From Halobacteriales archaeon QH_7_69_31 (lineage in GTDB: Archaea > Halobacteriota > Halobacteria > Halobacteriales > Haloarculaceae), in contig PXQY01000109.1 of the NCBI GenBank assembly GCA_003021745.1, positions 1 to 40,981 of the forward strand: DNA of 40,981 bases, in the 5' to 3' direction. Each line of letters opens with the position of its first letter. Position 1 is the first letter of the stretch. The notes under the pieces are model-generated. The model was not told the origin of the DNA and did no database searches. It was given only the letters and a program-made list of their open reading frames with translations. A program made the position numbers and the translations under genes. This document shows, piece by piece, positions 1 to 40,276 of this stretch.

Positions 1-384
1 CCGACGGCCTCGAGGAGCCCTACCGTGCGGGCGCGGTACCGCTCGCGGAGGTCGGTGACATGGTCCGACCGGAGGTCGTAGTCGAGGGCCTGCGAGTCGG
101 CAGTCCGGGCGCCGTCCGCCAGCAGTTCGTTCGCCTCGTCGGCCCACAGCCGGTCGTCGGCCGCCATCACGGCGTCCCCTCTCCGACTCGACGGGCGGCT
201 CCAGGTCGAACGCCGTCCAGACGGCCCGCCGGATGCGGGCCTCGGCCTGCTCGACGGCCTCGGACTCCGCCTCGACCGGGCGGGCCAGGTCGCCGATGTA
301 CGCCTCGCCGGCATCGTGCAGCTGGCCGAGCAACTCAAAGGGTGCCCCGCGATCGCAACCGCCCTGGGCGAACCGGAAGGACCA
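1..384 (-). pseudogene. HD-domain phosphohydrolase remnant, 5'-truncated and frameshifted, runs off the window
   Basis: Read on the minus strand, the segment below 384 encodes a stretch with LHDAGEAYIGD (His-Asp metal pair at 313-318) and then an AEARIRRAVWTAFDLEPP helix, as in HD-family phosphohydrolases. Near the G4 run at 176-179 the similarity jumps to another frame, which continues DAVMAADDRLWADEANELL to the window edge; one base too many in the run would explain it. The upstream part that should hold the first HD histidine (usually written SVAxHS) is absent: the frame is closed by a TAG at 385-387, and the HAD gene starts divergently at 415. It therefore looks like a dead gene, or an intact gene damaged by sequence errors. 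Alternatively the ATG at 167 starts a separate short protein, but its sequence reads as the natural continuation of the HD domain. Confidence 0.6.
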
Positions 385-414
385 CTACGACCGCCGTGGT
401 ACAGTCGTCACCCC

Positions 415-1095
415 GTGCCCTCCTACGATGCGGTGCTGTACGACAACGACGGGGTCCTCGTCGAGCCGCCCGCGCCGGACACCCAGCGGGCGGCCGTCCG
501 GGACGCGTTCCGGGCGGTCGGCGTCGACGACCCGGACCGGGCGGACGTCGACGAACTGACCGCGGGTGTCACCGTCGACGCGTTGCGGACCATCGGCGAG
601 CGGTACGGCGTCGACCCGGAGGCGCTGTGGCTGGCCCGCGAGCGGCACGACGAGCGGTCCCAAATCGCCGCCTTCCGGGACGGCCGGCGGGGCCACTACG
701 ACGACGTGGCGGCCGTCCTCGACCAACGCCGGCCCAGCGGCGTGGTGAGCAACAACCACCACAGCACCGTGGCGTTCCTCCTCGAGCACTTCGGCTGGAC
801 GGGGACGTTCGACACCTACTACGGGCGGGAGATGTCCGTCGAGAGCCTCCAGCGCAAGAAGCCGAACACCCACTACCTCGAGCGGGCGCTCGGGGACCTC
901 GGGACGGACTCGGCGCTCTACGTCGGCGACAGCGGTAGTGACGTCCTCGCGGCCCACCGGGCCAGGCTCGACTCGGCGTTCGTTGGACTGATGCGGTCGA
1001 GACCCGACGCGAGTTCGGGTGTTACAGCCAGTTATCGACGAAAACGACGCTGCGGAGCGAATCGCGGTCGCCGATGGCGTCCACCGCGCGGATGA
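415..1095 (+). CDS. HAD-family hydrolase (phosphoglycolate-phosphatase-like), C-terminus replaced
   Basis: This is a cytosolic HAD phosphohydrolase; the substrate is unknown. A GTG start at 415 puts the nucleophile motif (LYDNDGVL, DxD) at residues 8-15. SNNHH, around residue 111, is motif II, KKPNTHYLERAL supplies the motif III lysine, and YVGDSGSDVLAA is the motif IV acidic pair. After DSAFV the family normally continues with a short cap-closing C-terminus. Here the frame instead reads basic, low-quality sequence (YRRKRRCGANRGRRWRPPRG) that is antisense to the 3' end of the DUF5615 gene. The native tail was therefore probably lost where the toxin-antitoxin-like pair abuts, near 985-1022. 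The catalytic core is complete, so activity may remain. An upstream ATG at 316 is in frame but lies antisense to the HD remnant and is unlikely. Confidence 0.7.
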   Translation: MPSYDAVLYDNDGVLVEPPAPDTQRAAVRDAFRAVGVDDPDRADVDELTAGVTVDALRTIGERYGVDPEALWLARERHDERSQIAAFRDGRRGHYDDVAAVLDQRRPSGVVSNNHHSTVAFLLEHFGWTGTFDTYYGREMSVESLQRKKPNTHYLERALGDLGTDSALYVGDSGSDVLAAHRARLDSAFVGLMRSRPDASSGVTASYRRKRRCGANRGRRWRPPRG

Positions 1096-1375
1096 TCGCC
1101 GTCGCAATCTCGTACGCCGTCAGAGTGTGGTCGTCGATGAAGAAGACCCCCGCGTGGTTCCTCTCGTCCATCGCCAGGAAATCGGTGTCCTTGGTGACGA
1201 CGACGTGGTCGCGCTTGCGGGCGTACGGTGCGATGTCACCGCGGTCCTCGACGCCGGTATCGAGCGCGTCGACGACGTGTTCGCCCTCGTGGCCCTCCGC
1301 GCGTAGATACGCGAGCACCTGTCTGTCGACGTTTTCGTCGAGGAGGACCGAAATCGGGTTCTCGCGTCCGGTCAC
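1022..1375 (-). CDS. DUF5615 PIN-like protein (putative toxin), copy 1
   Basis: A 117-residue PIN-like (Mut7-C-type) protein, predicted to be the nuclease-fold toxin partner of the DUF433 protein encoded just upstream. Acidic residues typical of the fold are visible: VLLDENVD near the N-terminus and VVTKDTDFLAMDE in the middle, followed by an IATAIIRAVDAI helix. Its ATG overlaps the DUF433 stop by 4 bp, which fits translational coupling in an antitoxin-then-toxin order. The 3' end overlaps the spurious extension of the HAD gene. RNase activity is inferred from the fold family; no target can be read from the sequence. Confidence 0.8.
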   Translation of the reverse strand: MTGRENPISVLLDENVDRQVLAYLRAEGHEGEHVVDALDTGVEDRGDIAPYARKRDHVVVTKDTDFLAMDERNHAGVFFIDDHTLTAYEIATAIIRAVDAIGDRDSLRSVVFVDNWL

Positions 1376-1659
1376 TCCACGTCCTCGGGGGCAAGGGCGT
1401 CATCCCGAGCGTCCTCGATGCGTTCGCGCCGGCGCTCCCGGACCGCCCTCATCTCCGCAGGATGCTCGTGGTAGTACGCCAGTGCCCGGTAGACGGCTGC
1501 GAGGTCCAGGCCGTACCGGTTGGCGAACGCCCGCGGCGAGACGTTTCCGTCCTCGACCTCCTCGTGGACCTGCAGGACGCCGATTCGATGTCCTTCGATC
1601 CGTGGCTCGCCGTCCAGCACCCCATCGTCGGAGACGATTCCGGCCGCGCGCTGTGCCAT
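1372..1659 (-). CDS. DUF433 helix-turn-helix protein (putative antitoxin), copy 1
   Basis: A 95-residue DUF433 (VapB-like) protein. It shows the family core GEPRIEGHRIGVLQV, then a helix-turn-helix region reading FANRYGLDLAAVYRALAYYHEHP and a charged arginine-rich tail (RERRRERIEDARDD). Such proteins usually pair with DUF5615 toxins, bind their own promoter and neutralise the partner; that role is inferred here from family and order. A TATA-like element lies 27 nt upstream, so the mRNA is probably leaderless. It is only distantly similar to the second copy at 16.6-16.9 kb, so this is not a recent duplication. Confidence 0.82.
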   Translation of the reverse strand: MAQRAAGIVSDDGVLDGEPRIEGHRIGVLQVHEEVEDGNVSPRAFANRYGLDLAAVYRALAYYHEHPAEMRAVRERRRERIEDARDDALAPEDVE

Positions 1660-1680
1660 ACCGGTACGTACCCGCTCGAC

Positions 1681-1690
1681 AGTACAAAAA
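1681..1690 (-). promoter_or_regulatory. TATA-like element of the first DUF433/DUF5615 pair
   Basis: TTTTTGTACT on the minus strand, centred about 27 nt before the ATG at 1659, the spacing of a haloarchaeal leaderless promoter. Confidence 0.5.
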
Positions 1691-1811
1691 CCATCGCACG
1701 GACCACCTCGTCACGCGTTCGATGAACTCCCGGTCACGGGGAACCTCCAGCGGCGAGCGGCGGTCCCGGTCGACGATCGGGGGGCGGTCTCGCCCCGGAA
1801 GTTCGCACCAG

Positions 1812-2552
1812 TCAGGCTTGCTCCGCCTTCACCTCGTCGGCGTACCGGTCGGCCAGCCGGATCGGTCGCGGGAGCTTGTACTCGCCGCCGGCGGCCGCGA
1901 CGATCTCGACCGCCGTCTCGACGGACACCCGGTGGCCGGGCGAGACGTACAGCGGGTTCACCGTGGTCGAGTCGGGGTACTGGCGGCGCTGGTAGGCGTA
2001 TCCGACGACGTCGCCGTCGGGCGCCGTCATCTCGCCGTCGGCCTCGATGGGGACCCGCTCGCCTTCCTGGAGGGCGTCGATCGGTGCCGACGGGGTGCCA
2101 CACAGCAGGCTCTTGGCGACGCCGACGGTCGGGGCGTCGAGACAGACGCCGACGTGGGTCGCGAGCCCGGCCTCGCGGTAGTGGATGCGGCCGCTCCCGT
2201 CGAGGAGGACCACGTCGGGGGCGACGTCGAGCCGCTCCAGCGCCGCGAGGACCGGTTCGCCCTCCCGGAACGCGAGCAAGCCCGGGACGTACGGGATCGA
2301 CAGCGGGGTGGTGGCGTGCTCCCGGGCGACCACCGTCTCGCCCTCGCAGACGACGACCGCCGAGACGGCGCGGTCCTCCAGGAACGCCTGGTCGACGCCG
2401 GCGACGAGCGCGTCGCCGTCGCGGACGTCGGTAGCGTCGACCTCGAGGACGTCCTCGAGGACGGCGGCCTCGGCGATGTCGCGCTGGAGCGCTTCCATCG
2501 CCTCGGTGGACAGCGAACCGTCGGGTCGGAACCGCTCGCGGACGACGCCCAT
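1812..2552 (-). CDS. nfi: endonuclease V (deoxyinosine 3'-endonuclease)
   Basis: A DNA-repair nuclease that cuts one phosphodiester bond 3' of deoxyinosine. At 246 residues the protein is full length. Visible motifs are AGVDQAF at 51-57 (first metal-binding Asp54), PYVPGLLAFREG at 87-98 (the wedge motif that reads the lesion), LLDGSGRIHYREAGLATHVG at 116-135 (second metal-binding Asp118), GVAKSLLCG, and NPLYVSPGHRVS near the C-terminus. The start overlaps the rhomboid stop by 1 base (TGATG), so the two genes are co-translated; a functional link between them is not obvious. Confidence 0.93.
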   Translation of the reverse strand: MGVVRERFRPDGSLSTEAMEALQRDIAEAAVLEDVLEVDATDVRDGDALVAGVDQAFLEDRAVSAVVVCEGETVVAREHATTPLSIPYVPGLLAFREGEPVLAALERLDVAPDVVLLDGSGRIHYREAGLATHVGVCLDAPTVGVAKSLLCGTPSAPIDALQEGERVPIEADGEMTAPDGDVVGYAYQRRQYPDSTTVNPLYVSPGHRVSVETAVEIVAAAGGEYKLPRPIRLADRYADEVKAEQA

Positions 2553-3481: not shown

Positions 3482-3569
3482 TACCCCGGCGTAGCCGGCC
3501 GGCGTGGAAAGTCGTTGGGATGTACGGCAGCGATGCCGAATATCAGCCGGATGCAAGACGGACCCCCGG

Positions 3570-3579
3570 TTCTTATTTG
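3570..3579 (+). promoter_or_regulatory. TATA-like element of the DUF5788-polX operon
   Basis: TTCTTATTTG, centred about 29 nt upstream of the GTG at 3604; spacing supports a leaderless transcript and this start. Confidence 0.5.
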
Positions 3580-3603
3580 CCGCTCGACCCCGTAGACCAG
3601 GGC

Positions 3604-3962
3604 GTGCAGGCCTACGAGCGAAAGCAGCTCCTCGAGCGCATCGGGCGCGAGAGCGCGACGGTGGGCGTGGACATCCCCGAGCGGATCGAGGTCCAGGGCT
3701 CGACCGTCGAGCTCCGGGCGTTCGTCTTCGAGATCAAGCGACGCGACGCCGTCCCGCCGGGCGAACGCGAGCGGGTCGAGGCGGCAAAGCGGAACCTCCG
3801 CCGGGAGCGGCCCGGGCGCTGGAGGCGCTTGTGAATCTCGAGACCGGGTCCGTCGAGGCGGAGGCCGAGCGACGGGCGACGGCGGACAAAAAGCGGTGGA
3901 TGAACTTCCTCAAGCAGGCGCTCGGCCGGGACGACGACGGGCCGCAAGTGCGGGGGCCATGA
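3604..3962 (+). pseudogene. DUF5788 family protein, broken by an internal deletion
   Basis: The first frame (GTG at 3604) reads QAYERKQLLERIGRESATVG ... RRDAVPPGERERVEAAKRNL, the N-terminal half of the haloarchaeal DUF5788 family. It then runs into a stop at 3832-3834. The C-terminal half resumes in the next frame (ALEALVNLETGSVEAEAE ... KKRWMNFLKQALGRDDD) and ends in a TGA that overlaps the polX ATG by 4 bp, as an intact first gene of the operon would. Around 3812-3818 roughly 25 residues of the usual helix-turn-helix middle are missing along with the frame. The family's function is unknown. Either a deletion killed the gene or the assembly lost a segment. Confidence 0.7.
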
Positions 3963-5638
3963 GCCGGAACGCCGAGGTCGCGCGCCGGCTCGAGGAGATG
4001 GCCGACCACCTCGAGGCCCGCGACGTCGACTACAAGCCGCGCGCCTACCGGCGGGCGGCCGAGAGCATCCGCGCCCACGCCGTCGCCGTCGAGACGCTTC
4101 TCGAGGCCGAGGGCGAGGACGCCCTCGCCGGGATCGACGACGTGGGCGAGGCCATCGCCGGCAAGACCGCCGACTACCTCGAGACCGGCGAGATCGAGGA
4201 ACTGGCGGCGCTCCGCGAGGAGCTGCCCGTCGACATGGACGCGCTGACGGCCGTCGACGGCGTCGGCCCCAAGACCGTCGCGGCGCTCTACGAAGCCCTC
4301 CGGATCGAGGACCTCGACGACCTGGAGGCGGCCGCCGAGGCCGGCGACATCCGGGACGTGTCGGGGTTCGGCCCGAAGACCGAGTCGAACGTCCTCGAGA
4401 ACATCCCGTTCGCCCGGGAGTCCCGCGAGCGGAGCCGCCTCGGGACGGCACGGCCCGTGGCCGACCGCGTGCTCGCGTTCTTCGAGGACGTCGACGCCGT
4501 CGAGCGCGTCGACGTCGCCGGGTCGATCCGGCGGTGGCGCGCCACCATCGGCGACGTGGACGTCCTCGCCGCCAGCGACGACGGCGCGGCCGTCGTCGAG
4601 GCCTTCGAGACCTGGGAGGACGCCGACGACGTCATCGAGGCGGGCACCAACAAGGCCAGCGTCCGGGCGAACGGCACCCGCGTCGACCTCCGCGTCGTCG
4701 GCCCCGGGGAGTTCGGCGCGGCGCTGCAGTATTTCACCGGCAGCAAGGCCCACAACGTCACCGTGCGGAACCGCGCCATCGAGCGGGACCTGAAGGTCAA
4801 CGAGTACGGCGTCTTCGATACATCCGCCGTCGAGGACCCCGACGACGGTGAGGGCACCGAGAGTGCGCGAACGCTGTCGGACGGACGGTCCGACGGAAGC
4901 CAGCGCGTCGGCGACCGCGTCGCCGGCGAGACAGAGGCGGGCGTCTACGATGCCCTCGGGATGGCGTGGGTGCCGCCGGAACTCCGGGAGGACCGAGGGG
5001 AGGTGGCGGCCGCCGCGGCCGACGACCTCCCGGACCTCGTGGAGACGGCCGACGTCCGCGGCGACCTCCACTGCCACACCGCGTGGTCGGACGGCGACCA
5101 CACGGTCGCGGAGATGGTGGCTGGCGCGGCCGACGTCGGCCACGACTTCCTCGCCATCACCGACCACGCCACGGGCCCGGGCATGGTCGGCGGCGTCGGG
5201 CTCGACGACGGCGAACTCCGCGAGCAGATCGAGGCGGTTCGGGCGGTCGCCGACGACGCCGACGTCTCCGTCTTCGCCGGCGTCGAGGCCAACGTCGGGC
5301 CCGACGGCGAGGTGTCGGTCGGCGACGACGTGCTGGCGGCGCTTGACTGCGTCGTCGCCTCGCCGCACAGCGACCTGGATGGCGACGGCACCGATCGGCT
5401 CCTCGCGGCCATCGAGCACCCCGAGGTGGACGTCGTCGGCCACCCGACCGGCCGGAAGCTCAACCAGCGGCCCGGCATCGACGTCGACGTCCGGCAGGTC
5501 GCCGAGGCCGCCGCCGACCACGGGAGCTACGAGTACCTCCGGTACGGCGTCCACACCGCCCGCCGCGGCTGGTGCGAACCGGCGGACGTCCTGAACTGCC
5601 GGGACGCCGACGGCGTCCGGGCGTTCCTTGAGGACTGA
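3959..5638 (+). CDS. polX: family X DNA polymerase with C-terminal PHP domain, PHP end deleted
   Basis: A repair/gap-filling DNA polymerase of 559 residues. N-terminal helix-hairpin-helix units include IDDVGEAIA and VDGVGPKTVAALYEAL. The palm carries AGSIRRWRATIGDVDVL (about 187-203, two catalytic Asp) and RVDLRVV (third Asp, about 243). The PHP domain starts at DLHCHTAWSDG (about 369) and continues with ITDHATGPGM, GVEANVGPDGEV, VASPHSDLDG and VGHPTGRKL. Right after AAADHG (about residue 522) the sequence jumps to YEYLRYGVHTARRGWCEP. The block that should hold the LEINANP strand and the TDAH metal ligands, about 38-42 residues, is gone in frame. Polymerase activity should remain; PHP nuclease activity is doubtful. 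A small Ser/Gly/Asp-rich insertion lies near residues 300-320. Confidence 0.9.
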   Translation: MSRNAEVARRLEEMADHLEARDVDYKPRAYRRAAESIRAHAVAVETLLEAEGEDALAGIDDVGEAIAGKTADYLETGEIEELAALREELPVDMDALTAVDGVGPKTVAALYEALRIEDLDDLEAAAEAGDIRDVSGFGPKTESNVLENIPFARESRERSRLGTARPVADRVLAFFEDVDAVERVDVAGSIRRWRATIGDVDVLAASDDGAAVVEAFETWEDADDVIEAGTNKASVRANGTRVDLRVVGPGEFGAALQYFTGSKAHNVTVRNRAIERDLKVNEYGVFDTSAVEDPDDGEGTESARTLSDGRSDGSQRVGDRVAGETEAGVYDALGMAWVPPELREDRGEVAAAAADDLPDLVETADVRGDLHCHTAWSDGDHTVAEMVAGAADVGHDFLAITDHATGPGMVGGVGLDDGELREQIEAVRAVADDADVSVFAGVEANVGPDGEVSVGDDVLAALDCVVASPHSDLDGDGTDRLLAAIEHPEVDVVGHPTGRKLNQRPGIDVDVRQVAEAAADHGSYEYLRYGVHTARRGWCEPADVLNCRDADGVRAFLED

Positions 5639-8485: not shown

Positions 8486-9304
8486 CTACCGGAGGTGCGC
8501 CCCGGCCAGCGACACCGCACACCGCTCGGCGTCGTAGCCCGCATCCGACAGCCCCGTGTCCAGAGCGAAGACGGACTCGCCGAGCATCGCCATCGAAGCC
8601 TCCCCGCCGGCCTCCGCGACGGCCTGGACCGTCTCGCGGACCTCGGGCGTGAGCAGTCCGGTCTCGCGGGCGAACTCGCGGGAGGCGTGCATGAACGTCT
8701 CCAGGGTGGGTTCGGCGACCAGCGCCGACAGCGCCTGGCGGCCGGCCTCGGTGATCGCGTCTGTGTCGCCCGAGATGACTTCCTCGGTCCCGAGTTGGCC
8801 CCGAGCGAGGTACTCGACCTCGCGGGTGGCCGGGATGCCGTCCAAAACACCGTGGGCCGGCGCACCCGGCTCGAGGCGGACGGGGAAGCCGCCGCGGGCC
8901 TGTGCGACCACGTCGCCGAGCCCGGTTTCGGCCTGGATGTCGGCGCCGTGGGCGACGGTGACGAGTTCGTTCTCCGAGAGGCCGTGGTCGAACACCGCGT
9001 CGGCGGCCAGCGCCGTCCCGAGGGCGGCCGCGCCGGAGACGCCGAAGCCGGCCGACAGCGGGAGGTCGGTCTCGACGACCACGTGGGCGGTCGACCGGAG
9101 CGCGTCGAGGACCCGGGCGACCGCCTCGAGGTCGCAGGTCTCGCCGTTCAGTTCGACGCCGTCGCCGGGCTCGAGCCGGACGGTGACGCCGTCGGCGAGG
9201 GTGACGCCGGCGCCCCGCGAGCCCGCCTTTGTCGGGTCTTCGTCTCGGTTGACGGTGAAGAAGCCGGTCACGTGGCCCGGGACGAACGCGGTCGCGTCGG
9301 TCAC
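8486..9304 (-). CDS. pantoate kinase (archaeal GHMP kinase)
   Basis: It phosphorylates pantoate with ATP, the archaeal route into coenzyme A. The protein is a 272-residue GHMP-superfamily enzyme: AFVPGHVTGFF at the N-terminus, the ATP-binding loop PLSAGFGVSGAAALGTALAA near residue 80, HGADIQAETGLGDVVAQARGG (typical of pantoate kinases), and a C-terminal GGEASMAMLGESVFAL strand-helix. The GTG at 9304 overlaps the TGA of a 16-codon open frame that starts exactly where leaderless transcription is expected, suggesting translational coupling to a mini-ORF. Together with the synthetase at 6974-7720 it makes the two-step archaeal replacement for bacterial PanC/PanK. Confidence 0.9.
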   Translation of the reverse strand: MTDATAFVPGHVTGFFTVNRDEDPTKAGSRGAGVTLADGVTVRLEPGDGVELNGETCDLEAVARVLDALRSTAHVVVETDLPLSAGFGVSGAAALGTALAADAVFDHGLSENELVTVAHGADIQAETGLGDVVAQARGGFPVRLEPGAPAHGVLDGIPATREVEYLARGQLGTEEVISGDTDAITEAGRQALSALVAEPTLETFMHASREFARETGLLTPEVRETVQAVAEAGGEASMAMLGESVFALDTGLSDAGYDAERCAVSLAGAHLR

Positions 9305-13064: not shown

Positions 13065-13567
13065 TCCCGGCCCACCACCTTGAGGATCGTGAGGAGGGCG
13101 CCGACGACCACGAGATACACCCCGAGGTCGAAAACGAGGGCGCTGGCGAGTTCGATTTCGTGGTACAGCGGGACGCCCTCGACGAACACGACGGCCTGCG
13201 AGAGGAAGGGGTAGCCGGCGAGCATGGCGGCGACGCCGCCGGCCGCCGCGAGGGCGAGCCCGGCGGCGAACGTCCCGGCGAAGGTCTCGGTCACCCCCGA
13301 GAGGACGCCGCGGCCGGGCACCGTCACGCCGAGGAGCGTCTCCTCGAGTTCGTCGAGGCCGTAGATGATGGCGGTGAGGGCGAAGGCCGTGACCGTGAGG
13401 ACGCCGGCGATGAAGCCGCCGCCGGGGAGGTTGTGGCCCCGCACCAGGAGCGCGACCGCGGTCACGAGGATGAGCGGGACGACCGTCCGGGTGACGAGCC
13501 GGGCGATGACGGTCGTCTCCCGGCGCGGGTCGCGACGGCCGGCGGGCCGACCTCGCCCGTCGCTCAC
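13061..13567 (-). CDS. mrpB: Mrp-type Na+/H+ antiporter subunit B
   Basis: A 168-residue membrane subunit with four hydrophobic helices. It carries the conserved RGHNLPGGGFIAGVLTVTAFAL loop and FVEGVPLYHEIELASALVFDLGVYLVVVG. The GTG at 13567 overlaps the mrpA TGA by 2 bases. The first 20 residues are Arg/Gly rich. Confidence 0.92.
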   Translation of the reverse strand: MSDGRGRPAGRRDPRRETTVIARLVTRTVVPLILVTAVALLVRGHNLPGGGFIAGVLTVTAFALTAIIYGLDELEETLLGVTVPGRGVLSGVTETFAGTFAAGLALAAAGGVAAMLAGYPFLSQAVVFVEGVPLYHEIELASALVFDLGVYLVVVGALLTILKVVGRE

Positions 13568-18714: not shown

Positions 18715-18767
18715 ACACTTTCTCCCGTCGAGGGCGTCCGGGTCGTGGGCCGGGCGGCGCGACCATC

Positions 18768-18794
18768 GGGAGCGCCGCCGGATGGGCGAGCGGG
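18768..18794 (-). repeat. right arm of the 27-bp inverted repeat flanking aspS
   Basis: Inverted copy of 17092-17118 with a single mismatch; it lies in the 225-bp gap between aspS and the ZIP transporter gene, where no gene is visible. Confidence 0.6.
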
Positions 18795-18908
18795 AGGCGC
18801 GAGTGAGGCCTCGGAACGGGCGAGCGGCGAAGCCGCGCGCCGGCCCGCCAGCCGAGCCCGGGTTCGCGGAGCGGTTCACGGTCAGTCTCGAGAGGCCGGT
18901 ACCGCTGC

Positions 18909-20198: not shown

Positions 20199-20199
20199 C

Positions 20200-21444: not shown

Positions 21445-21510
21445 CCCTTCTCCCGGTGTCGCTGGATCATGGCTCGCCGTTCGGGGAGGCGACACTTGAA
21501 TTTGACGCGT

Positions 21511-21519
21511 CTAAACCTA
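21511..21519 (-). promoter_or_regulatory. possible TATA-like element before the oxidase-ZIP operon
   Basis: TAGGTTTAG on the minus strand within an AT-richer stretch (21496-21545). It would start transcription near 21489, giving a leader of about 45 nt before the ATG at 21444. Near-repeats GTCTAAAC and GACTAAC beside it could be an operator, but no known regulator motif is matched convincingly. Confidence 0.3.
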
Positions 21520-21669
21520 TCGTTCGAGTAGACTAACGAATAGTTTTGCACGACGCTCTCGGGGGCCGGGACGGGGCTGTCGGTTCCGCAGGTAGCCGTA
21601 TCGACGTCCCTACAGCGGGGCGATGTCGGTCCCGAGGTCCGCGGTGGGTCGCCCGGTGGGGGCCCGGCG

Positions 21670-23364: not shown

Positions 23365-23724
23365 ATGTCAGACGAGGATACCGACCCGGCGATCACGCTC
23401 TACCGGCTCCAGGCCTGCCCGTTCTGCGAGCGCGTCGTGCGGACGCTCGACGAACTCGACGTGCCGTACCACTCGCGGTTCGTCGAGGCGCGACACTCCC
23501 GGCGGGACGGCGTCAAGCGCCGCTCCGGCGCCCGCACCGTCCCGGCGATCGTCGACGCCTCGACCGGCGTGACGATGAGCGAGAGCGCCAACATCGTCGA
23601 GTACCTCGAGACGACGTACGGCGGCGGCGAGGCTCCGGAGGAGCCCCGAACCGACGGTGGAGCCGTCGGTGGCGGCGCCGACCCCGGCCGGGCCACGGCT
23701 CGCGCCGCCGGGGAGGCCGAATGA
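23365..23724 (+). CDS. glutathione S-transferase N-terminal-like / glutaredoxin-fold protein
   Basis: A 119-residue thioredoxin-fold protein. ITLYRLQACPFCERVVRTLDELDVPY has a CPFC redox pair at the usual place. RTVPAIVDASTGVTMSESANIVEYLETTYG contains the cis-Pro and the SES glutathione-site signature of GST N-terminal domains. No GST helical domain follows; the last 30 residues are a Gly/Pro/Ala tail. It probably reduces disulfides with gamma-glutamylcysteine-type thiols (inference). The stop overlaps the redoxin ATG by 4 bp. Confidence 0.82.
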   Translation: MSDEDTDPAITLYRLQACPFCERVVRTLDELDVPYHSRFVEARHSRRDGVKRRSGARTVPAIVDASTGVTMSESANIVEYLETTYGGGEAPEEPRTDGGAVGGGADPGRATARAAGEAE

Positions 23725-24134
23725 ACCTCGAGTTCGACGTCATCGACCTCGAACCCGCCGACCCGCCCGGGCACACGATGGACGGCGACTTCCCCGCGAC
23801 GTACATCTGGCAGGAGGTCCGCGACCGCGGGTGGGACGAGTACGGGGCCGCGGTCGTCGGGTGCTCCATCTCGACGCCGTACGAGCACTCCCGGTTCCTC
23901 GAGGAGTGGGGCCTCGAGGCGTTCCGGCTGTTCGCCGACCCGGCCAACGACGTGGCCGAGGCCTACGGCGTCGGCCACGACCTCGACGGCATGCACGGCA
24001 TCCACGAGCCCCGGCCCGCCGTCTTCGTCATCGACGCCGACCGGACCGTCCGGCACGCCTGGGTCGCCACGGAGTGGCCAGAGTTCCCGCCGTACGCGGA
24101 ACTCGAAGACGCCGTCGAGTCGCTGGAGCCGTGA
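23721..24134 (+). CDS. redoxin (AhpC/TSA-like) protein missing its thioredoxin-fold front
   Basis: A 137-residue protein whose C-terminal two thirds read TMDGDFPATYIWQEVRDRGW, GAAVVGCSISTPYEHSRFLEEWGL, LFADPANDVAEAYGV and PRPAVFVIDADRTVRHAWVA, the wording of a haloarchaeal redoxin family. Between LEFDVIDLEPADPPG and HTMDGDF the block that normally supplies the first strands (APDFTLP-type region and the strand ahead of the active loop, about 40-45 residues) seems deleted in frame near 23765-23775. Peroxidase function is therefore doubtful. The stop overlaps the next GTG by 3 bp. Confidence 0.72.
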   Translation: MNLEFDVIDLEPADPPGHTMDGDFPATYIWQEVRDRGWDEYGAAVVGCSISTPYEHSRFLEEWGLEAFRLFADPANDVAEAYGVGHDLDGMHGIHEPRPAVFVIDADRTVRHAWVATEWPEFPPYAELEDAVESLEP

Positions 24135-24719: not shown

Positions 24720-24845
24720 GGCCTGGCTCCTCGCGCCTCGATCCGCTTCCGGAGACCTCGCCGGGACGGACTCTGCGGTGTTGGCCTGGCTCCTCGCGCC
24801 TCAGTCCGCCCGCGGGGACGTCGCCGGGACGGACTCGGCGGCGTC
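24720..24845. repeat. two-copy 63-bp tandem repeat across the stop of the HMA membrane protein gene
   Basis: Units begin at 24720 and 24783 with identical first 20 bases (GGCCTGGCTCCTCGCGCCTC), and share TCGCCGGGACGGACTC later. Read on the minus strand, the inner copy encodes the last residues and the TGA of the HMA protein. The outer copy stays in frame but has CGA in place of the TGA. Confidence 0.75.
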
Positions 24846-25649
24846 GGCCGGCGGCTCCGCCGTCGATCCCGCGACGGCCTCGCGGTCCGCCGCGCGCCGG
24901 ACGGCCGCACCGACGACCACCACGATGACGATGTCGTAGTAGACGCCGCCGGGAATCAGGAACGCCGTCGCCGTACTGTAGAGGTACAGCCCCACGGCGA
25001 GCGCGGCGACGAGGAGGTTCCGGTTCGGGGACAGCGTCCGGAGTGAGGCCCCGGCGTCCTCGAGGAGCGGCTTGCCGGTCACCGCGAGGACGATGCCGGA
25101 CAGGAGCGCGAGGTTCAGGAAGAAGTGAGTCGCGAAGGCACTCTCCAGGGCGCGCTCCAGGAGTGCGACGACCCGGGGATGGGCGGGCCAGACGGCGAAT
25201 CGGGTCGGGTACACGACGGCGGCGTACGGCACGAGGGCCATCAGCCCGGCGAGGAGGCCGGTGACGAGCCGGGCCTCCCGAAACTGGGCGGCCCGGCGGT
25301 TGCCGAACGCCTCGTCGGTCGTCTCGACGGGGTAGCCGAGGTCGGCGAGCGCCGCCCGCAGCGACGCCGGCGACGCCGTCTCGGGGTCGTAGTCGACCCG
25401 AACCGTCCCGTGACCCGGCGTGGCCGTGACGTTGCTCACGCCGTCGCGGGCCGCCAGGATGCACTCGAGGAGACCGGCACACGTCCGGCAGTCCAGGCCG
25501 GTGACCTCGAAGACGCAGTGCTCGTGGGCCTCGCCGACGGTGGCCGTTTCGACACCCGGCGAGGCGGCTCGGTCGACGTCCGCCGGGGTCACGCCGTCGG
25601 CGTCGGCGACGATCCGGGCGACGTCGCGCCGGCAGTCACGGTCAGCCAT
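24801..25649 (-). CDS. copper-ATPase-like protein: HMA domain plus first membrane helices only
   Basis: A 282-residue protein. The N-terminus carries a heavy-metal-associated domain (FEVTGLDCRTCAGLLECILA with the metal-binding CxxC pair, TVRVDYDPE). Four hydrophobic segments follow whose wording (GIVLAVTGKPLLEDAGASLR, RNLLVAALAVGLYLYSTATA, GVYYDIVIVVVVGAAV) matches the entry helices of haloarchaeal P1B copper ATPases. The actuator, DKTG phosphorylation and nucleotide domains and the CPC helix are all absent. The protein ends in an Ala/Pro tail at a tandem repeat. It is either a truncated pump or a stand-alone metal-binding membrane protein. Confidence 0.75.
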   Translation of the reverse strand: MADRDCRRDVARIVADADGVTPADVDRAASPGVETATVGEAHEHCVFEVTGLDCRTCAGLLECILAARDGVSNVTATPGHGTVRVDYDPETASPASLRAALADLGYPVETTDEAFGNRRAAQFREARLVTGLLAGLMALVPYAAVVYPTRFAVWPAHPRVVALLERALESAFATHFFLNLALLSGIVLAVTGKPLLEDAGASLRTLSPNRNLLVAALAVGLYLYSTATAFLIPGGVYYDIVIVVVVGAAVRRAADREAVAGSTAEPPADAAESVPATSPRAD

Positions 25650-27808: not shown

Positions 27809-29890
27809 TCAGTCGTCGGCCGGCGCCGCGTCCGTGCCTGCGTCGCCGGCGGTCGCGACCGGCGCACCGTTGACCTCGAGTGCCTCGACGACGAGTTCGG
27901 CGACGTCGACGATCTCGATGTCCTCTTCGAACCCGCCGGTCTTCCGGCCGTCCTCGTACATCGTCATGCACATCGGGCAGGCGACGACGAACTTCTCGAC
28001 GGCGGCGCCGGCGTCGGTGTCCTCCAGCGCCTCTCGGAGCCGCTCCTCGCTCGGTTTCGGCTCCTCGTCGAAGTCCATCCAGAGGCCGCCGCCCCCGCCG
28101 CCACAGCAGAAGGAGTTCGCGCGGTTCCGCGGCATCTCCCGGAGGTCACACCCGGTCGCGCGGACGAGTTCCCGGGGCGCCTCGTACTCGTCGTTGAACC
28201 GGCCGAGGTGACACGGGTCGTGGTAGGTGACCGTGTAGTCCAGTTCGTCGCCGCCCAGGCCGAGGGCGTCGACGCCGACGAGTTCCTCGACGGCCTGGGT
28301 CCAGTGGTACACCTCGACGTCGCCGTCGCGGTTCCAGTAGCCCTCGACGGCGAACTCCATCATCGGGTCGTCGGCGAACGCCTCGAAGTCGACCTCCGGG
28401 TATTCGTTTTTGAACGTGTTGTACGAGTGGGGATCGGTACAGACGATCGTCCCGTAGTCACACTCCCGGAAGCTGTCGACGAGGGTGCCGGCCTGCTCGA
28501 CGAAGAGGAACTCCTCGCCGATGCGGCGGACGTCGTTGCCGTCGTAGACCTCGTCCTCGTAGAGGATGCCGACCGAGACCGATTCCTCGCGGGCGTCGGC
28601 GACCTCGAAGCCCAGTTCCTCGGTCCAGTCCCCGCGGTCCGACGGCGGGTCCCCGAACGTGTTGCCCTTCTGCATCACGTTCTGGAAGACGTCCTGGATC
28701 TCCGGGCGGACGTCGCCCTGGTCGACCTGCTGGCGGTTGAGCCGGGTGAAGCTCTTGAGGTGCTCGATCTCGACGGGGCAGGCGTCCATGCAGGCCATAC
28801 AGGCCATGCAGGACTCCATCGTCTCGGTGTCGATGACGCCGCCGCCGTCGGCGATGATCGGTTTCGTCTCGCCGCCCGCCTCCACCGATTGCCTGTAGGC
28901 CTTCAGGTCGAGGATGACGTCGCGGGGGTCCAGCGGCCGGCCGGACGCCTTTGCGGGGCAGACGGCCGAACAGCGGCCGCACTTGGTGCAGGCGTCCTGG
29001 TCGAGCAGTTCCCGCCAGCTGAAGTCGTCGATGGACTCGGCGTTCGTCGCGTCCAGGTCCGACGGCACGCCCGGCAGCCGGACGCCGGCCTGCTCGTCGC
29101 GCGTCACGACGTTGGCGAACGACGAGATCATGTGGAACGGCTTGGCGTACGGGATGGCCGCGATGAAGAGGAACGCGAGCAGCGCGTGGGACCACCACGC
29201 AAGCGGGTAGACGGCGGCCGCCGACGAGGCGTCCAGCCCCAGGCTGGCGAGGGCGAGCGCCACCGCGGTCCCGACGAAGCTGACCGACTCGGGGCCCTGG
29301 CCGAGGATGCGGAGGCCCTCCAGGAGGAACCCGCCCAGCCCGAGGAGGAACAGCGACCAGACGAGGAACGCGTCCTCCCAGTCGGTGTGTTTGCCCCACA
29401 GCCGGTCGCTGCGGCGGACGTACCGGCGCCACAGCGCGACGGCCAGGCCGACGACGAAGAGTAGACCGAGGGCGTCGGTGACCAGTTGGTAGGACAGATA
29501 GAAGTCGCCGACCCAGAACGAGTCGCCGGTGGCGACCTGGTAGAAGTCGATGTCGACGAAGAGGATGGTGGTCGCGATGAGCAGCGTCAGAAAGCCCCAC
29601 ATGATGAACGCGTGCATGAGGCCGCCGACCAGGTCGCGGTTGAACTGCGTCTCGTTCGTGGCGACGATCTTCGCGGCCGAGGCGATCCGGCCCGGGAGGT
29701 CGTCGAGTCGGTCGAACCAGTCGGCCGTCCCGCGCGTGTACCGGGCGAACCGTCGGTAGACCCCGATGGCGGCGACGAGGATCGTCAGTGTGGCGAGGAA
29801 GTAAAACAGCACCTTCTGGACCGGGCCGATCTGCCAGTAGGTCTCCCTGGCGAGGTCGCCGCCGGCTTGCAGGGCGAGCGCCGATGGCAT
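27809..29890 (-). CDS. membrane-bound Fe-S oxidoreductase (HdrD/GlpC-like with heme-b-type membrane domain)
   Basis: A 693-residue electron-transfer protein. Residues about 25-270 hold six hydrophobic helices of a NarI/HdrE-like membrane domain (LVGGLMHAFIMWGFLTLL, WWSHALLAFLFIAAIPYAKPFH, with candidate heme His). Two ferredoxin clusters follow, CTKCGRCSAVC (about 300) and CMACMACMDAC (about 363), then two CCG-type domains with TYHDPCHLGRF and ANSFCCGGGGGGLWMD. Between DAREE and SVGILYEDEVYDGNDVRR (near 28575-28590) the usual first strand-helix of the CCG region (WYVGD-type) seems missing, about 35-40 residues in frame. It probably links a cytosolic donor to the quinone pool. A TATA-like element lies 28 nt upstream. 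Confidence 0.85.
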   Translation of the reverse strand: MPSALALQAGGDLARETYWQIGPVQKVLFYFLATLTILVAAIGVYRRFARYTRGTADWFDRLDDLPGRIASAAKIVATNETQFNRDLVGGLMHAFIMWGFLTLLIATTILFVDIDFYQVATGDSFWVGDFYLSYQLVTDALGLLFVVGLAVALWRRYVRRSDRLWGKHTDWEDAFLVWSLFLLGLGGFLLEGLRILGQGPESVSFVGTAVALALASLGLDASSAAAVYPLAWWSHALLAFLFIAAIPYAKPFHMISSFANVVTRDEQAGVRLPGVPSDLDATNAESIDDFSWRELLDQDACTKCGRCSAVCPAKASGRPLDPRDVILDLKAYRQSVEAGGETKPIIADGGGVIDTETMESCMACMACMDACPVEIEHLKSFTRLNRQQVDQGDVRPEIQDVFQNVMQKGNTFGDPPSDRGDWTEELGFEVADAREESVSVGILYEDEVYDGNDVRRIGEEFLFVEQAGTLVDSFRECDYGTIVCTDPHSYNTFKNEYPEVDFEAFADDPMMEFAVEGYWNRDGDVEVYHWTQAVEELVGVDALGLGGDELDYTVTYHDPCHLGRFNDEYEAPRELVRATGCDLREMPRNRANSFCCGGGGGGLWMDFDEEPKPSEERLREALEDTDAGAAVEKFVVACPMCMTMYEDGRKTGGFEEDIEIVDVAELVVEALEVNGAPVATAGDAGTDAAPADD

Positions 29891-30711: not shown

Positions 30712-31406
30712 GGCGGCCGGACGTCGAGGCCCTCGAGGTCCGCCCGGACCGCACCGAGCGGCCCGTCGGCGGCGATCGTTCCGTCCGAGAGGACCACGAC
30801 CCGGTCTACGACGTCGGCGACCGCACCCAGGTCGTGGGTGACGACCACGACGCTCGTCCCGGCGGCGTTGAGCGATTCGAGTCGTTCGCGGACCAGCTGC
30901 CGTGCCGGCCAGTCGAGCCCGGTGAACGGCTCGTCCAGCACCAGGTGGTCGGGCTCCATCGCCAGCGCCCCGGCGATCGCGACCCGGGCCGTCTCGCCGC
31001 CGGAGAGGCGGTCGATCCGCTCGTCCCGTCGGCCGTCCATCCCGACCGCCGACAGCGCCGACTCGACGCGTCTGTCGATCTCCTCGCGGGCCAGGCCCAG
31101 GTTCTCGGGGCCGAACGCGACGTCGGCGCCGACCGTTGCGGCGACGAAACAGTCGCGGGGGTTCTGGAAGACCATCCCGACCGCAGTCCTGGCGGCGACG
31201 AGGTCGGCACCGACCGGATCGCCGTCGACGAACACCTCGCCATCGTCCGGTTCCAGGAGGCCGTTGAAGTGTCTGACGAGCGTCGTCTTGCCCGACCCGT
31301 TCGCGCCGCAGATCGCGAGGAACGTCCCGTCGTCGACGGTCATCGAGATGCCGTCGACGGCTGTCACGTCGCCGTACCGGTGGACCAACCCCTCGGTCCG
31401 TATCAT
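30708..31406 (-). CDS. bioM: ECF transporter ATPase EcfA (biotin locus)
   Basis: A 232-residue ABC ATPase that powers the biotin ECF transporter. Walker A GANGSGKTTL (about 33), Q-loop VFQNPRDCF, signature LSGGETARVAIAGAL, Walker B HLVLDEPFTGLD and H-loop VVVTHDLG are all intact. Overlaps of 4 bp with bioY upstream and ecfT downstream make a dedicated three-gene module, and the BirA-type operator ahead of bioY supports biotin as the substrate. Confidence 0.92.
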   Translation of the reverse strand: MIRTEGLVHRYGDVTAVDGISMTVDDGTFLAICGANGSGKTTLVRHFNGLLEPDDGEVFVDGDPVGADLVAARTAVGMVFQNPRDCFVAATVGADVAFGPENLGLAREEIDRRVESALSAVGMDGRRDERIDRLSGGETARVAIAGALAMEPDHLVLDEPFTGLDWPARQLVRERLESLNAAGTSVVVVTHDLGAVADVVDRVVVLSDGTIAADGPLGAVRADLEGLDVRPP

Positions 31407-32017
31407 CCGGCCTGGAGGACGTCGCTCCGGACGATCCCGAGGGCCGCGACCAGCTTGAGTATCTCGGCCGGGACGAACGGGACGACACCCGCGAGGACCG
31501 CGGCCTCCGGCCCGACGTCCTGGACGTACATGAGTCCCAGGGCCCCGAACGCGTAGATGACGACCGTCCCGACCGCCATGGCCACCACGAGTCGGGCCGG
31601 CGACACCGACGACGGCCGCCGGACCTCCGTCGAGCCGTGGACCAGGTACCCGATGACGACCGCGGCCAGTGGGAAGGCCCACAGGTAGCCGAACGACGGA
31701 GCCCCGCCGAGGAGGATGCCGATACCCGCCGATCCGCCCTCGAAGACCGGCGCGCCGACGGCCCCGGCAGCGAGATACAGCACCATCGCGGCGCCGCCCC
31801 ACACCGGCCCGAGCAGGATGCCGGCTAGGAACACGCCCAGGACCTGCAGCGTGAACGGGATCGAGGTCACGGGCACCGTGACCGAAACGAGAGCGAACGC
31901 GCCCATGAGCGCCGCGAACAGCGCCGCCCGCGCGATGTTCAACGTCGTCTCCTCGTCCACGAGGTCGACCCCCGACGTGTTCGTGCGTGTCATGCCCGGC
32001 CCTCGCTCGTCAACCAT
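31403..32017 (-). CDS. bioY: biotin transporter substrate-binding protein BioY
   Basis: The S-component of a biotin ECF transporter, about 204 residues, six hydrophobic helices. It has the family wording SIPFTLQVLGVFLAGILLGPVWGGAAMVLYLAAGAVGAPVF, GGAPSFGYLWAFPLAAVVIGYL and VVPFVPAEILKLVAALGI. Transcription from the TATA element at 32049-32060 should begin near 32027, so the ATG at 32017 is the first available; ATG 31993 is an alternative eight codons in. The operator covers the start region, so biotin-loaded repressor would block the transcript. Confidence 0.9.
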   Translation of the reverse strand: MVDERGPGMTRTNTSGVDLVDEETTLNIARAALFAALMGAFALVSVTVPVTSIPFTLQVLGVFLAGILLGPVWGGAAMVLYLAAGAVGAPVFEGGSAGIGILLGGAPSFGYLWAFPLAAVVIGYLVHGSTEVRRPSSVSPARLVVAMAVGTVVIYAFGALGLMYVQDVGPEAAVLAGVVPFVPAEILKLVAALGIVRSDVLQAG

Positions 32018-32038
32018 CTTGACGGTACCGGTTGACAA
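32007..32038 (-). promoter_or_regulatory. BirA-type biotin operator at the bioY promoter
   Basis: On the plus strand: TCGTCAACC, 14 bases, GGTTGACAA. The known BirA consensus is TTGTAAACC-N14/16-GGTTTACAA, so spacing is exact and 15 of 18 arm bases match. It lies between the TATA element and the bioY start, the expected place for repression. BirA with an N-terminal winged helix is the expected binder; that gene is not in this window. Confidence 0.8.
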
Positions 32039-32048
32039 CGACCGCCAG

Positions 32049-32060
32049 GTTTAAATATGA
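32049..32060. promoter_or_regulatory. divergent TATA element shared by bioY and the HTH gene
   Basis: GGTTTAAATATG is AT-rich and near-symmetric. It sits about 30 nt upstream of the GTG at 32085 on the plus strand and about 27 nt upstream of the expected minus-strand start near 32027, just before the bioY ATG. One bidirectional box, or two overlapping ones, would serve both genes. Confidence 0.6.
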
Positions 32061-33069: not shown

Positions 33070-33711
33070 ATGCTGCCGTCCTCCTGGAAGCGCGACATCG
33101 CCAGCGGGCTCATCATCGTCGTGCCGCTGCTCGTCGTCGCGTACGTCATCGCCGTCGTCTACCGGGCCCTCGCCTCGATCCCGTACCTCGATACGGTGCT
33201 GAAGACGGAAGACCCGGTCCTCCAGGTCGGCATCGTCCTCGTGCTGTTCGCGCTACTGGTCATCTCGGTCGGTTACCTGATGCGGACCACCCTCGGGGAC
33301 CTCCTGGAGACCGCCCTCGACAAGCTCATGAACCAGGTCCCCGGGCTCAGGGTGGTGTACAACGCCTCGAAGATGGCGGTCGAGACGGCGCTGTCCGGTC
33401 CCGAGGAGCTGCAAACGCCCGTCAAGCTCGAGGTCTGGGACGGAATGCGGATGACCGCGTTCAAGACCGGGAAGACGACCCCGGACGGACGCGACGTCCT
33501 CTTTCTCCCGACGGCGCCGAACATCACGACCGGCTACGTGGTCGAGGTCCAGGCCGACCGGTACGTCGAGGTCGACGAGAGCGTCGAGGACGCCCTGACC
33601 CGGATCCTCAGCGCCGGCTTCGGGGAGAGCCGGGAGTCCGGGATCGCGATCGACGTCACGGAGGGCGGCCCGATGGTCCGGGAGGAGGACCGCGAGACCA
33701 CGGACGACTGA
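33070..33711 (+). CDS. DUF502 family membrane protein
   Basis: A 213-residue protein with two N-terminal helices (IASGLIIVVPLLVVAYVIAV; VGIVLVLFALLVISVGYLM), each followed by family-typical wording: IPGLR-like VPGLRVVYNASKMAVETAL, PVKLEVWDGMRMTAFKTGKT and DVLFLPTAPNITTGYVVEV. The C-terminal 100 residues should form a soluble cytosolic domain. Function is unknown; bacterial relatives have been linked to cell envelope processes without a defined reaction. Confidence 0.88.
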   Translation: MLPSSWKRDIASGLIIVVPLLVVAYVIAVVYRALASIPYLDTVLKTEDPVLQVGIVLVLFALLVISVGYLMRTTLGDLLETALDKLMNQVPGLRVVYNASKMAVETALSGPEELQTPVKLEVWDGMRMTAFKTGKTTPDGRDVLFLPTAPNITTGYVVEVQADRYVEVDESVEDALTRILSAGFGESRESGIAIDVTEGGPMVREEDRETTDD

Positions 33712-33818: not shown

Positions 33819-34655
33819 CTATCCGCTGATGATCGCCCGGAGGGCGAACAGCGCGTTCTCCTTCCGCTCCATCACCCGACGGTAGAAGTACGACAGCCAT
33901 CGCGTCCCGTAGGGGGCGTACTGGTAGACCGCCACGCCGTCGGCGGCGAGGGCCCGCTGGGCGTCCTCGCGGACGCCCATCAGCATCTGGACCTCGTAGT
34001 CGGTCCCGTACTCCCGGTGGAGATCGCGGGCCAGCTCGATCATCTCGGGGTCGTGGCTCCCGAGGGCGACGCCGCCGTCGAACTGCTCGAAGGCCCCCAC
34101 GAGGAGGTCCCGGAACGCCTCGTCGATCCTGGCCTTGTCGGTGTAGGCCGCGTCCGGCGGTTCGTCGTAGGCGCCCTTGACGAGTCGGACCTTGCCGGGC
34201 AGGTCGGCGAGCCGCGCCAGGTCCGCCGGCGTCCGCTTGAGGTTGGCCTGGAGACAGAGCCCCACGCCGTGGTACCGTCGGACCTGGGACTCGAAGGCGT
34301 CGATCGTCGCGTCGGTGGTCGTGTGGTCCTCCATGTCGATCCAGACGAACCCATCGTGGTCGGCGGCCGCCCCGACGACCCGCGTCAGGTTCTCCCGGAA
34401 GACGGCCGGGTCGACGTCGAAGCCGAGCTGGGAGGGCTTCACGGAGACGCAGGCGTCGAGGTCGGTGTCGCCGATGGTCGACAGGAGCTCGCAGTAGGCC
34501 TCGGCGTCGGCGTCGGCCGGCTCGCGGGCCTCGTAGTGTTCGCCGAGGCGGTTGAAGATCGTGCCGACGCCGGCGGCGTCGAGGTCGCGCGCGTGGTCCA
34601 TCGCGTCGCCGGCGGTCTCGCCAGCGACGAACCGCCGCGCGATAGGTGGGATCAC
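33819..34655 (-). CDS. proline dehydrogenase
   Basis: A flavoenzyme that oxidises proline to 1-pyrroline-5-carboxylate, the first step of proline catabolism. At 278 residues it is the short stand-alone type. The TIM-barrel motifs are [90 protein letters not shown] and [22 protein letters not shown]. The GTG at 34655 gives the usual [12 protein letters not shown] start; upstream in-frame sequence is not family-like. The divergent carS promoter is close by. Confidence 0.9.
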
Positions 34656-34702
34656 GCTGGCAAATACTGCCGCGCGACCCAAGAGCGTACCGGGAGCCGT
34701 CG

Positions 34703-35717: not shown

Positions 35718-35725
35718 TGGGGGCG

Positions 35726-37432: not shown

Positions 37433-37457
37433 GGTCGTCCGATGATTGTCTGTGGTT

Positions 37458-37547: not shown

Positions 37548-37574
37548 GTTGATGAGACGCTTCCGGGGCACGCC

Positions 37575-38091: not shown

Positions 38092-38139
38092 AGCGTCGGG
38101 CTGACCGGCGGTTCACGACGGGGGCGTCGCCGGGCAGCC

Positions 38140-38688: not shown

Positions 38689-38708
38689 ACGCCCGCTTGG
38701 GCAGGCCG

Positions 38709-38718
38709 CCTTTTAAGC
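38709..38718 (-). promoter_or_regulatory. TATA-like element of the KH-protein gene
   Basis: GCTTAAAAGG on the minus strand, 26 nt before the ATG at 38688. Confidence 0.5.
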
Positions 38719-38783
38719 GTTCGCCGACCGCTCCGGCGGCGTTTCGCGCCGGAGACGGGGCCGCGCCGCGACCGATCCGTCAC

Positions 38784-39278
38784 TCACAGCGACCGCTCGT
38801 ACTCGTACTCGTCGTGCAGTTCCCCGGCGACTTCGGCGTTCGCCGCCTGGCCCTCCTCGAACCCCCGCGCCTCGAGGAACCCGCGGCCGACGGCGTTGTC
38901 GGCGAAGACGCCGGCGACGACCCGGTCGACGTCCTGCTCGGTCGCCCACGCCTCGACCACCTCGAGCAACGCCGAGCCGACCCCCTCGCCCCAGCGGTCG
39001 GGGTTGACGTACAGCGTGTGGAGTTCCACCTCGTCGGTCCACGTCCGCTCGGCGCTGGCGAACCCGACCACCTCGCCATCAAGTTCGGCGACCTGGAACT
39101 CGATGGCGTCGTGCTCGACCGCCGTCGCCAGGACGTCCTCGTCGTAGGCCTGCGCGAGACCGGCCTCGACGCTCTGTGGGTCGAGGAACCCGCCGTAGGC
39201 GGCGTACCACGCGTCCCGCGCCACCGCCTCGACGGCCGCGAGGTCCTCCGCCGTCGCCGCCCGGACGTCCACGTTCAT
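38784..39278 (-). CDS. GNAT-family N-acetyltransferase
   Basis: A 164-residue acetyl-CoA-dependent transferase. It has VRAATAEDLAAVEAVARDAW at the N-terminus, VELHTLYVNPDRWGEGVGSALLEVVEAWA (motif A, acetyl-CoA loop RWGEGVGSALL) and FADNAVGRGFLEARGFEEG (motif B). The acceptor substrate is unknown. The ATG overlaps the phosphoesterase stop by 4 bp, so the genes form a two-gene operon with shared expression. Confidence 0.88.
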   Translation of the reverse strand: MNVDVRAATAEDLAAVEAVARDAWYAAYGGFLDPQSVEAGLAQAYDEDVLATAVEHDAIEFQVAELDGEVVGFASAERTWTDEVELHTLYVNPDRWGEGVGSALLEVVEAWATEQDVDRVVAGVFADNAVGRGFLEARGFEEGQAANAEVAGELHDEYEYERSL

Positions 39279-39787
39279 ACCGACTCGTCGACGTTCAGGA
39301 ACTCCACGTCGTTACGGCGGGTGTCCACGATGGCGACCGTGCGGTGGGCCTCGCCGACGGTCGGGAAGTGGGCGCCGGGGTTGAGCACCGTCGCGTCGCC
39401 GACCGACCGCTCTTCGCGGACGTGCCAGTGGCCGTGACATACGTAGTCGTACTCGTCCGAGGCGGCGAGCGCCTCGATGACCGGCCGCTGTTCGCCGTGC
39501 AGGACTGCGACGTCGACGCCGTCGAATTCGAGTTCGGCGAACCGGCCGTGCAGCGTCCCGCCGTCGAGCGAGTCGAAGGCGTCCCGGAGGCCTTCGCGTT
39601 CGCCGTCGTTGTTCCCGCGGACCGCGTGGACGGGCACCCCCTCCAGGTCGAGGTGGGGGATGACCGGCGGCGCGACGAAGTCGCCGCAATGGACGATGGC
39701 GTCCACGTCGGCCGACGCGAAGCGGTTCATCGCGGCCTCGACCGCCGGGACGTTGTCGTGGGTGTCCGAGATGACGCCGACCTGCAT
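39275..39787 (-). CDS. YfcE-type metallophosphoesterase
   Basis: A 170-residue calcineurin-like phosphoesterase with MQVGVISDTHDN (first metal motif), AIVHCGDFVAP (GD), VRGNNDGE (GNND), VAVLHGEQ and VCHGHWHV (GHxH), and LNPGAH. The fold and motif spacing are complete, so a two-metal phosphodiesterase is expected; the substrate is unknown. The first ATG at 39787 has a TATA-like element 26 nt upstream. Confidence 0.92.
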   Translation of the reverse strand: MQVGVISDTHDNVPAVEAAMNRFASADVDAIVHCGDFVAPPVIPHLDLEGVPVHAVRGNNDGEREGLRDAFDSLDGGTLHGRFAELEFDGVDVAVLHGEQRPVIEALAASDEYDYVCHGHWHVREERSVGDATVLNPGAHFPTVGEAHRTVAIVDTRRNDVEFLNVDESV

Positions 39788-39808
39788 GCGTGGCCGTTCT
39801 CGGTGCTC

Positions 39809-39818
39809 GGAAAAGAAG
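39809..39818 (-). promoter_or_regulatory. TATA-like element of the phosphoesterase-acetyltransferase operon
   Basis: CTTCTTTTCC on the minus strand, about 26 nt before the ATG at 39787. Confidence 0.45.
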
Positions 39819-39880
39819 CCTCGGTCGGCGCCCGGGGCACTCGGGGCGACCGTCGGGGACGTTTCCGTCCGCCGCCCTTG

Positions 39881-40276
39881 ATGTCTACTTGGCCCAGCAG
39901 AACGTCTTCGGCGACCCCCTTGGAACCGTGCAGTACCGACCCGATGACCGGCTTCGAGCGGGACGGCCGCTATGGGTGTCACGAGCGCGACCCCGGCCGC
40001 CACGAACTGTGTGTCGTGGTGACCGAGGTGTTTCTCGCCTTCGGAACGGAACGCGTCAACGACCTCCCAACGGCACGGTCGGAGCCGAACTTCCCCGGAC
40101 TCGACTCCGGCGACCGTTGGTCGCTTTGCGTCCAGCGGTGGGTGGAGGCCGTGGAGGCCGTCGAGAACGGATAGGCACCGGAGTCGACCGTCCCGCCGGG
40201 GGTGTTGGCGGCGACCAGCGGGGCGGTGTTGGAAACCGGCTCAATGGAGACGCTGCGCCGGCACGCCCACGAGTAG
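39881..40276 (+). pseudogene. DUF2237 family protein, frameshifted and with in-frame stop
   Basis: AQQNVFGDPL (frame opening at TTG 39889) and then, in the next frame, LEPCSTDPMTGFERDGRYGC, DPGRHELCVVVTEVFLAF, NDLPTARSEPNFPGLDSGDRWSLCVQRWVEA follow the DUF2237 family in order. The frame change falls in CCCCCTTGG near 39917-39925 and would be cured by removing one T. A TAG at 40172-40174 interrupts the C-terminus. The frame then continues APESTVPPGVLAATSGAVLE and METLRRHAHE to the true stop at 40274-40276. Two independent lesions point to a genuine pseudogene. The family function is unknown. Confidence 0.75.

Follow-up and report, generated by a model that had tools for sequence, protein, structure and literature searches.

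The window studied here is a 40,981-nucleotide stretch that makes up the entire contig PXQY01000109.1 (C100) in the draft genome of Halobacteriales archaeon QH_7_69_31 (G000). Five of its genes, encoding a HAD hydrolase, a DUF5788 protein, PolX, a redoxin/peroxiredoxin and an Fe-S oxidoreductase, each lack an internal piece. Comparison of the sequences indicates that these absent pieces are very probably scaffold gaps whose length was under-estimated, and thus an artefact of assembly rather than a loss of DNA by the organism; the holes are most likely no genuine biological feature. We favor this explanation because holes of like size sit at different places in both sister drafts, because three other members of the genus are nearly free of such events, because explicit runs of N in the scaffolds fall short of the true gap, and because tRNA-synthetase genes are broken with no clear frame preference. 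The original prediction had raised both a real mutational process and a systematic consensus or assembly fault; holes in the sister draft, the controls, the broken glyS gene and the bias of the N-gaps support the latter and do not support the former.

The draft is haloarchaeal (2.2 Mb in 135 contigs, 72.9% complete). The window has a GC content of 71%, and its named near relatives are haloarchaea. We found no tRNA genes in the window and no Rfam families at the gathering score. The nearest relative found, Halobacteriales archaeon QS_1_69_70 (G013; its contig C43 is PXRI01000043.1), is likewise a draft, belongs to the same genus and is 94–95% identical to G000. Two further drafts with related names, QS_4_69_225 (G011) and QS_8_69_73 (G014), enter the comparisons below.

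Pieces absent from five genes of the window

The window was aligned to G013 at approximately 95% identity, and a hole was scored where G013 carries extra bases and the window is contiguous. At five junctions (Table 1), the window cleanly lacks sequence that close relatives carry, the HAD junction being judged against G013 alone, whose own HAD copy contains stops. Nine genes of the window had originally been listed as lacking a part. The alignment to G013 bears out five of them, and it places the junctions proposed near 3.81, 5.52, 23.77 and 28.58 kb correctly; the remaining four (Mut7-C, P1B ATPase, HD and DUF2237) contain no hole, as judged by Pfam matches and by comparison with G013 and other relatives.

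Alignment to homologs, which had been suggested as a check, shows that relatives carry the polX, Fe-S oxidoreductase, redoxin and DUF5788 pieces and that G013 carries the HAD piece. The DUF5788 protein of the window is split into residues 1–93 and 118–174, and is unbroken in G013 and in 9/9 other genomes with a match among the loci compared. For polX, the alignment is interrupted at the junction in every one of the 38 matching genomes (of 39 searched besides G000), and the intervening DNA measures 96–105 bp in the four worked out (G002, G011, G013 and G016). The redoxin match begins at residue 1–3 in 19 of 20 relatives, with one relative giving no match, whereas that of the window begins at residue 52; consistent with this, the Pfam AhpC-TSA profile is matched only from position 55 on. 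The Fe-S oxidoreductase of G000 is split into 1–437 and 468–724, and residues 438–467 are covered in 20/20 relatives. Since all five pieces are present in G013, the two genomes do not share these junctions by descent, a pattern that is compatible with deletions private to G000.

Pieces are missing in the opposite direction as well. Several stretches present in the window are absent from G013 (Table 1), and polX is damaged in both sister drafts, each of which lacks a different piece.

Table 1 Features of the window and the glyS locus outside it, with the pieces absent from either sister draft.
Feature	Positions	Strand	Observation	Basis
HAD-hydrolase gene	983..984	+	83 bp absent, frame lost; no repeat at junction	G013 alignment
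DUF5788 gene (3520-3959)	3812..3818	+	82 bp absent, frame lost; alignment pieces overlap by 7 bases	
polX (3947-5638)	5521..5523	+	117 bp (39 codons) absent near gene end, frame kept	
Redoxin/peroxiredoxin gene (23721-24134)	23771..23772	+	108 bp (36 codons) absent near N-terminus, frame kept	
Fe-S oxidoreductase gene (27809-29890)	28577..28579	-	96 bp (32 codons) absent, frame kept	
Endonuclease V gene	1847..2002	-	156 bp absent in G013	Window protein matches Endonuclease_5 to profile end
polX, start of PHP region	5030..5149	+	120 bp absent in G013	
Start of open reading frame (ORF) 31403-32038	31966..32060		95 bp absent in G013	BioY-like by eye
ORF 33070-33711	33353..33461	+	109 bp (not divisible by 3) absent in G013	DUF502-like by eye
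Proline dehydrogenase ORF, front part	34564..34659	-	96 bp absent in G013	PF01619
Gene first called Mut7-C	1022..1375	-	DUF5615 protein, full length	PF18480 positions 3-107 of 110
Gene first called P1B ATPase	24801..25649	-	Natural short HMA and membrane-segment protein, nothing absent	Segments read by eye
Gene first called HD	3..384	-	Decayed remnant at contig end	HD assignment by eye
DUF2237 gene	39914..40267	+	One in-frame TAG, no hole	Profile 6-115 of 115
glyS locus	L089 (G013:C5) 13275-15008; G000:C134:12886-14536			

Indels between sister drafts and in control genomes

Clean insertions and deletions (indels) of 40–220 bp were counted between drafts, with events above 220 bp and multi-part "complex" differences left out. 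The compared sequence comprised 479,068 bases of G000 and 1,235,299 bases of G013, which overlap in part only. A first set yielded 52 clean indels in 160,119 aligned bases, and the addition of more G013 sequence brought this to 66 in 239,832. Each of the 66 indels has a place of its own, and together they fall on 17 contigs of G000. Forty are absent in G000 and 26 in G013; their median length is 96 bp (interquartile range 73–120 bp), and the size class of 40–60 bp (9/66) may mix true indels with holes. The similar size of the losses, remarked on from the window alone, is seen here too, with scaffolding as its better explanation.

The same script was run on genus mates at 93–94% identity as controls. 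The pair G010–G015 shows no event in 39,017 bases, G001–G010 none in 56,013, and G001–G015 a single event of 44 bp in 60,434, giving 1 event in 155,464 aligned bases over three pairs that share genomes and so are not independent. Such events are thus rare in these other assemblies. Between G011 and G014 there are 12 events in 56,789 bases, 10 of them absent in G014; like holes show up both in the comparison of QS_1 with G000 and in that of QS_8 with QS_4. G007, for which the record name suggests another project, gave in a short comparison no event in 15,546 bases against G011 and two events of 42 bp in 16,039 bases against G014. Taken together, these counts suggest that the fault follows the data set.

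The holes are spread over contigs independently of gene function and reading frame, and two tRNA synthetases are among the genes hit. Some of the damaged genes ought to be indispensable to a cell. The glycyl-tRNA synthetase gene (glyS) of G000 lacks 80 bp and loses its frame; the gene is intact in G013, and the spot of the hole is covered in 20/20 relatives. No second glyS was found in the G000 bin, which is 73% complete and where the sole other match is incomplete and scores well under the family cut-off. The glyS gene of G011 is also irregular, at a different position. The archaeal lysyl-tRNA synthetase gene (lysS) of G000 lacks 165 bp in frame, and a phosphoribosyl-pyrophosphate synthetase gene (prs, named by eye) is also hit, both as judged between the two sister drafts. 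In G013, the genes hit include those for a thermosome subunit, the proteasome-activating ATPase and dCTP deaminase (names read from the sequences). The earlier claim that housekeeping genes are whole consequently fails outside the window, at glyS, lysS and prs.

Thirty-five holes lie wholly within ORFs, where 14 have lengths that are multiples of 3, 9 leave a remainder of 1 and 12 a remainder of 2. In the absence of selection one third would keep the frame; the observed share does not clearly exceed this, and there is no clear frame preference. The earlier remark that three of four internal losses in the window keep the frame fits chance, and selection for frame is not supported.

Probable scaffold gaps and competing explanations

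Runs of N whose flanks align cleanly to another draft allow the stated length to be set against the true gap. In eight of eight cleanly placed cases (six in G000, one in G013 and one in G014), the true gap exceeds the N-run, the paired lengths (N-run/true gap) being 17/73, 37/115, 38/159, 43/181, 49/95, 128/235, 193/423 and 223/429. The shortfall ranges from 46 to 230 bases with a median of 114, which is near both the median hole of 96 bp and one read length. The idea that Ns had been stripped from the scaffolds was rejected, as N-runs persist in both drafts.

The most probable course of events is that short-read contigs were joined into scaffolds with the distance between neighboring contigs estimated too short. 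A larger true gap would then be filled with an N-run of insufficient length, while a true gap of approximately 100 bases would be estimated at about zero or less, and the contig ends would be abutted with no N at all. The outcome would mimic a clean deletion of approximately 100 bp in whatever gene sits there. We infer that the same size bias closes the gaps that carry no N and that the program was IDBA_UD run on 100-base reads. Under-estimated gaps would account for the size of the holes and explain why they neither favor a reading frame nor coincide with a local sequence signal; the absent pieces would then exist in the living population.

A study of Atacama salt crusts describes a driest site named Qs, HiSeq2000 sequencing with 100-base pairs and IDBA_UD scaffolds (PMC5532433); its text contains no PXR accession. 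QS_1_69_70, QS_4_69_225 and QS_8_69_73 probably stem from this project, to which they are linked by the site name alone, and G013 is probably, judged by its name, an IDBA_UD scaffold set built from 100-base reads. G000 presumably comes from this project too. Local assembly errors and scaffolding gaps have been described in IDBA-UD metagenome drafts (Chen et al. 2020, PMC7111523). The likeness lies in faults inside otherwise good scaffolds that lead to incomplete or incorrect protein-coding genes. The difference is that those faults are regions without perfect read support, or Ns inserted despite overlapping flanks, whereas in the present case the gap would be estimated too short and a true gap would vanish without Ns. 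In the passages of that work consulted, no size bias of gap estimates is described.

Several points weigh against under-estimated gaps. Outside the window, "missing" means absent from one of the two genomes in a pairwise comparison. The control assemblies differ in contig number, with 2 contigs each for G010 and G015 and 90 for G001. The N-gap test comprises 8 clean cases out of 23 N-runs, of which 9 were placed and 14 were unplaceable; the ninth placed run (171 bases against a measured 57) is opposite in direction, with 249 bases of its left flank unaligned. A pipeline shared by G000 is suggested indirectly, by its nearest relative, its like holes and its N-gaps. The five pieces absent from the window were also sought elsewhere in the bin, where just 34–49-base matches at 78–88% were found; relocation of the pieces within the bin was rejected on the same result. 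Finally, exact microhomology at the 66 junctions amounts to 0–3 bases in 54, 4–7 bases in 10 and at least 8 bases in 2, compared with 96.7%, 3.2% and 0.2% of random positions, respectively. Microhomology of at least 4 bases thus occurs at 12/66 junctions against 3.3% of random positions, a mild excess that plain butt joins do not predict. It would follow from true repeat-driven indels at a minority of the junctions, or from contigs joined on short false overlaps.

This excess is also among the observations that speak for real, recurrent deletions of approximately 100 bp in these haloarchaea, the work of an unusual mutational process, together with the clean edges and similar sizes of the pieces and their occurrence in two draft pairs but hardly in three other genus mates. 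Such a process is nonetheless very unlikely. It would disable glyS out of frame although the bin yielded no other copy, it would have acted without a clear preference for the reading frame, 54/66 junctions have at most 3 bases of exact microhomology, and the explicit N-gaps carry a matching size error. To our knowledge, 66 such events within approximately 6% divergence are far beyond any known rate. In a variant of this idea, which we hold to be extremely improbable, salt-crust haloarchaea truly undergo very frequent deletions of approximately 100 bp, perhaps through microhomology end-joining of breaks caused by desiccation. The drafts would then capture standing variation: haloarchaea are polyploid, and many genome copies would contain broken genes for which other copies compensate.

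Little credence likewise attaches to the proposal that the pieces were lost as coverage holes, being hairpin-forming or too GC-rich to sequence. Pieces of at least 70 bp (n = 40) do fold slightly better than random sequence (DNA energy of −0.238 versus −0.203 per base, p 0.0003), but neither GC nor folding peaks locally in the position profile around the holes, and the folding difference therefore looks regional. At most, this effect adds to why contigs broke at these places, in which case it is compatible with under-estimated gaps.

A chimeric consensus, in which the contig passes from one co-occurring strain to another at each junction and drops sequence in doing so, finds a possible instance at positions 984–1846 of the window, which start at a hole and are 99.2% identical to G013, compared with approximately 95% around them. 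Across events, however, the median jump in identity is 0.020 (n = 40, the measurable ones of 52) versus 0.017 at random (p 0.77), making this origin of the holes exceedingly doubtful. The high identity of 984–1846 may reflect a recent exchange or an assembly that mixes strains.

Other features of the window and consequences for draft genomes

The four listed genes that contain no hole have explanations of their own. The short HMA-membrane protein is 93% identical to its G013 counterpart over the full 282 residues; G016 (68%), G012 (45%) and G026 (42%) have short forms as well. It resembles a copper ATPase reduced to its front part, with the catalytic part lacking. A Pfam search of the HD frames gave no family. 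The short start and the frame change of this remnant are also found in G013, so the damage looks inherited and, unlike the holes, likely represents true gene decay. The DUF2237 gene scores 111 bits, compared with 160–172 bits in the 15 relatives (of 20) with a match, and with its in-frame TAG it is possibly a true pseudogene or the product of a sequencing error.

Two longer differences from G013 were also seen. At 18748–21668, the window carries a multicopper oxidase and metal transporter pair where G013 has 48 bp instead. Of 20 plasmid records listed, 14 carry a similar pair at 73–77% DNA identity, so this segment looks like an acquired cassette. At 8492–8649, G013 is approximately 1.7 kb longer, with the extra sequence flanked by a direct repeat of approximately 158 bp; this difference would be an insertion or duplication in G013, or a loss in the window.

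The main result is a warning on data and not a biological finding. Public drafts of this kind may hold silent holes, at a density of up to approximately one hole of about 100 bp per 6 kb (40 absent in G000 in 239,832 aligned bases). Many of these holes are in frame, and the resulting protein resembles a natural deletion variant. Drafts of this sort would give wrong indel rates and protein models, and wrong counts of lost genes and pseudogenes. A simple flag that needs no reads is to set the length of each N-run against the true gap measured in a sister draft.

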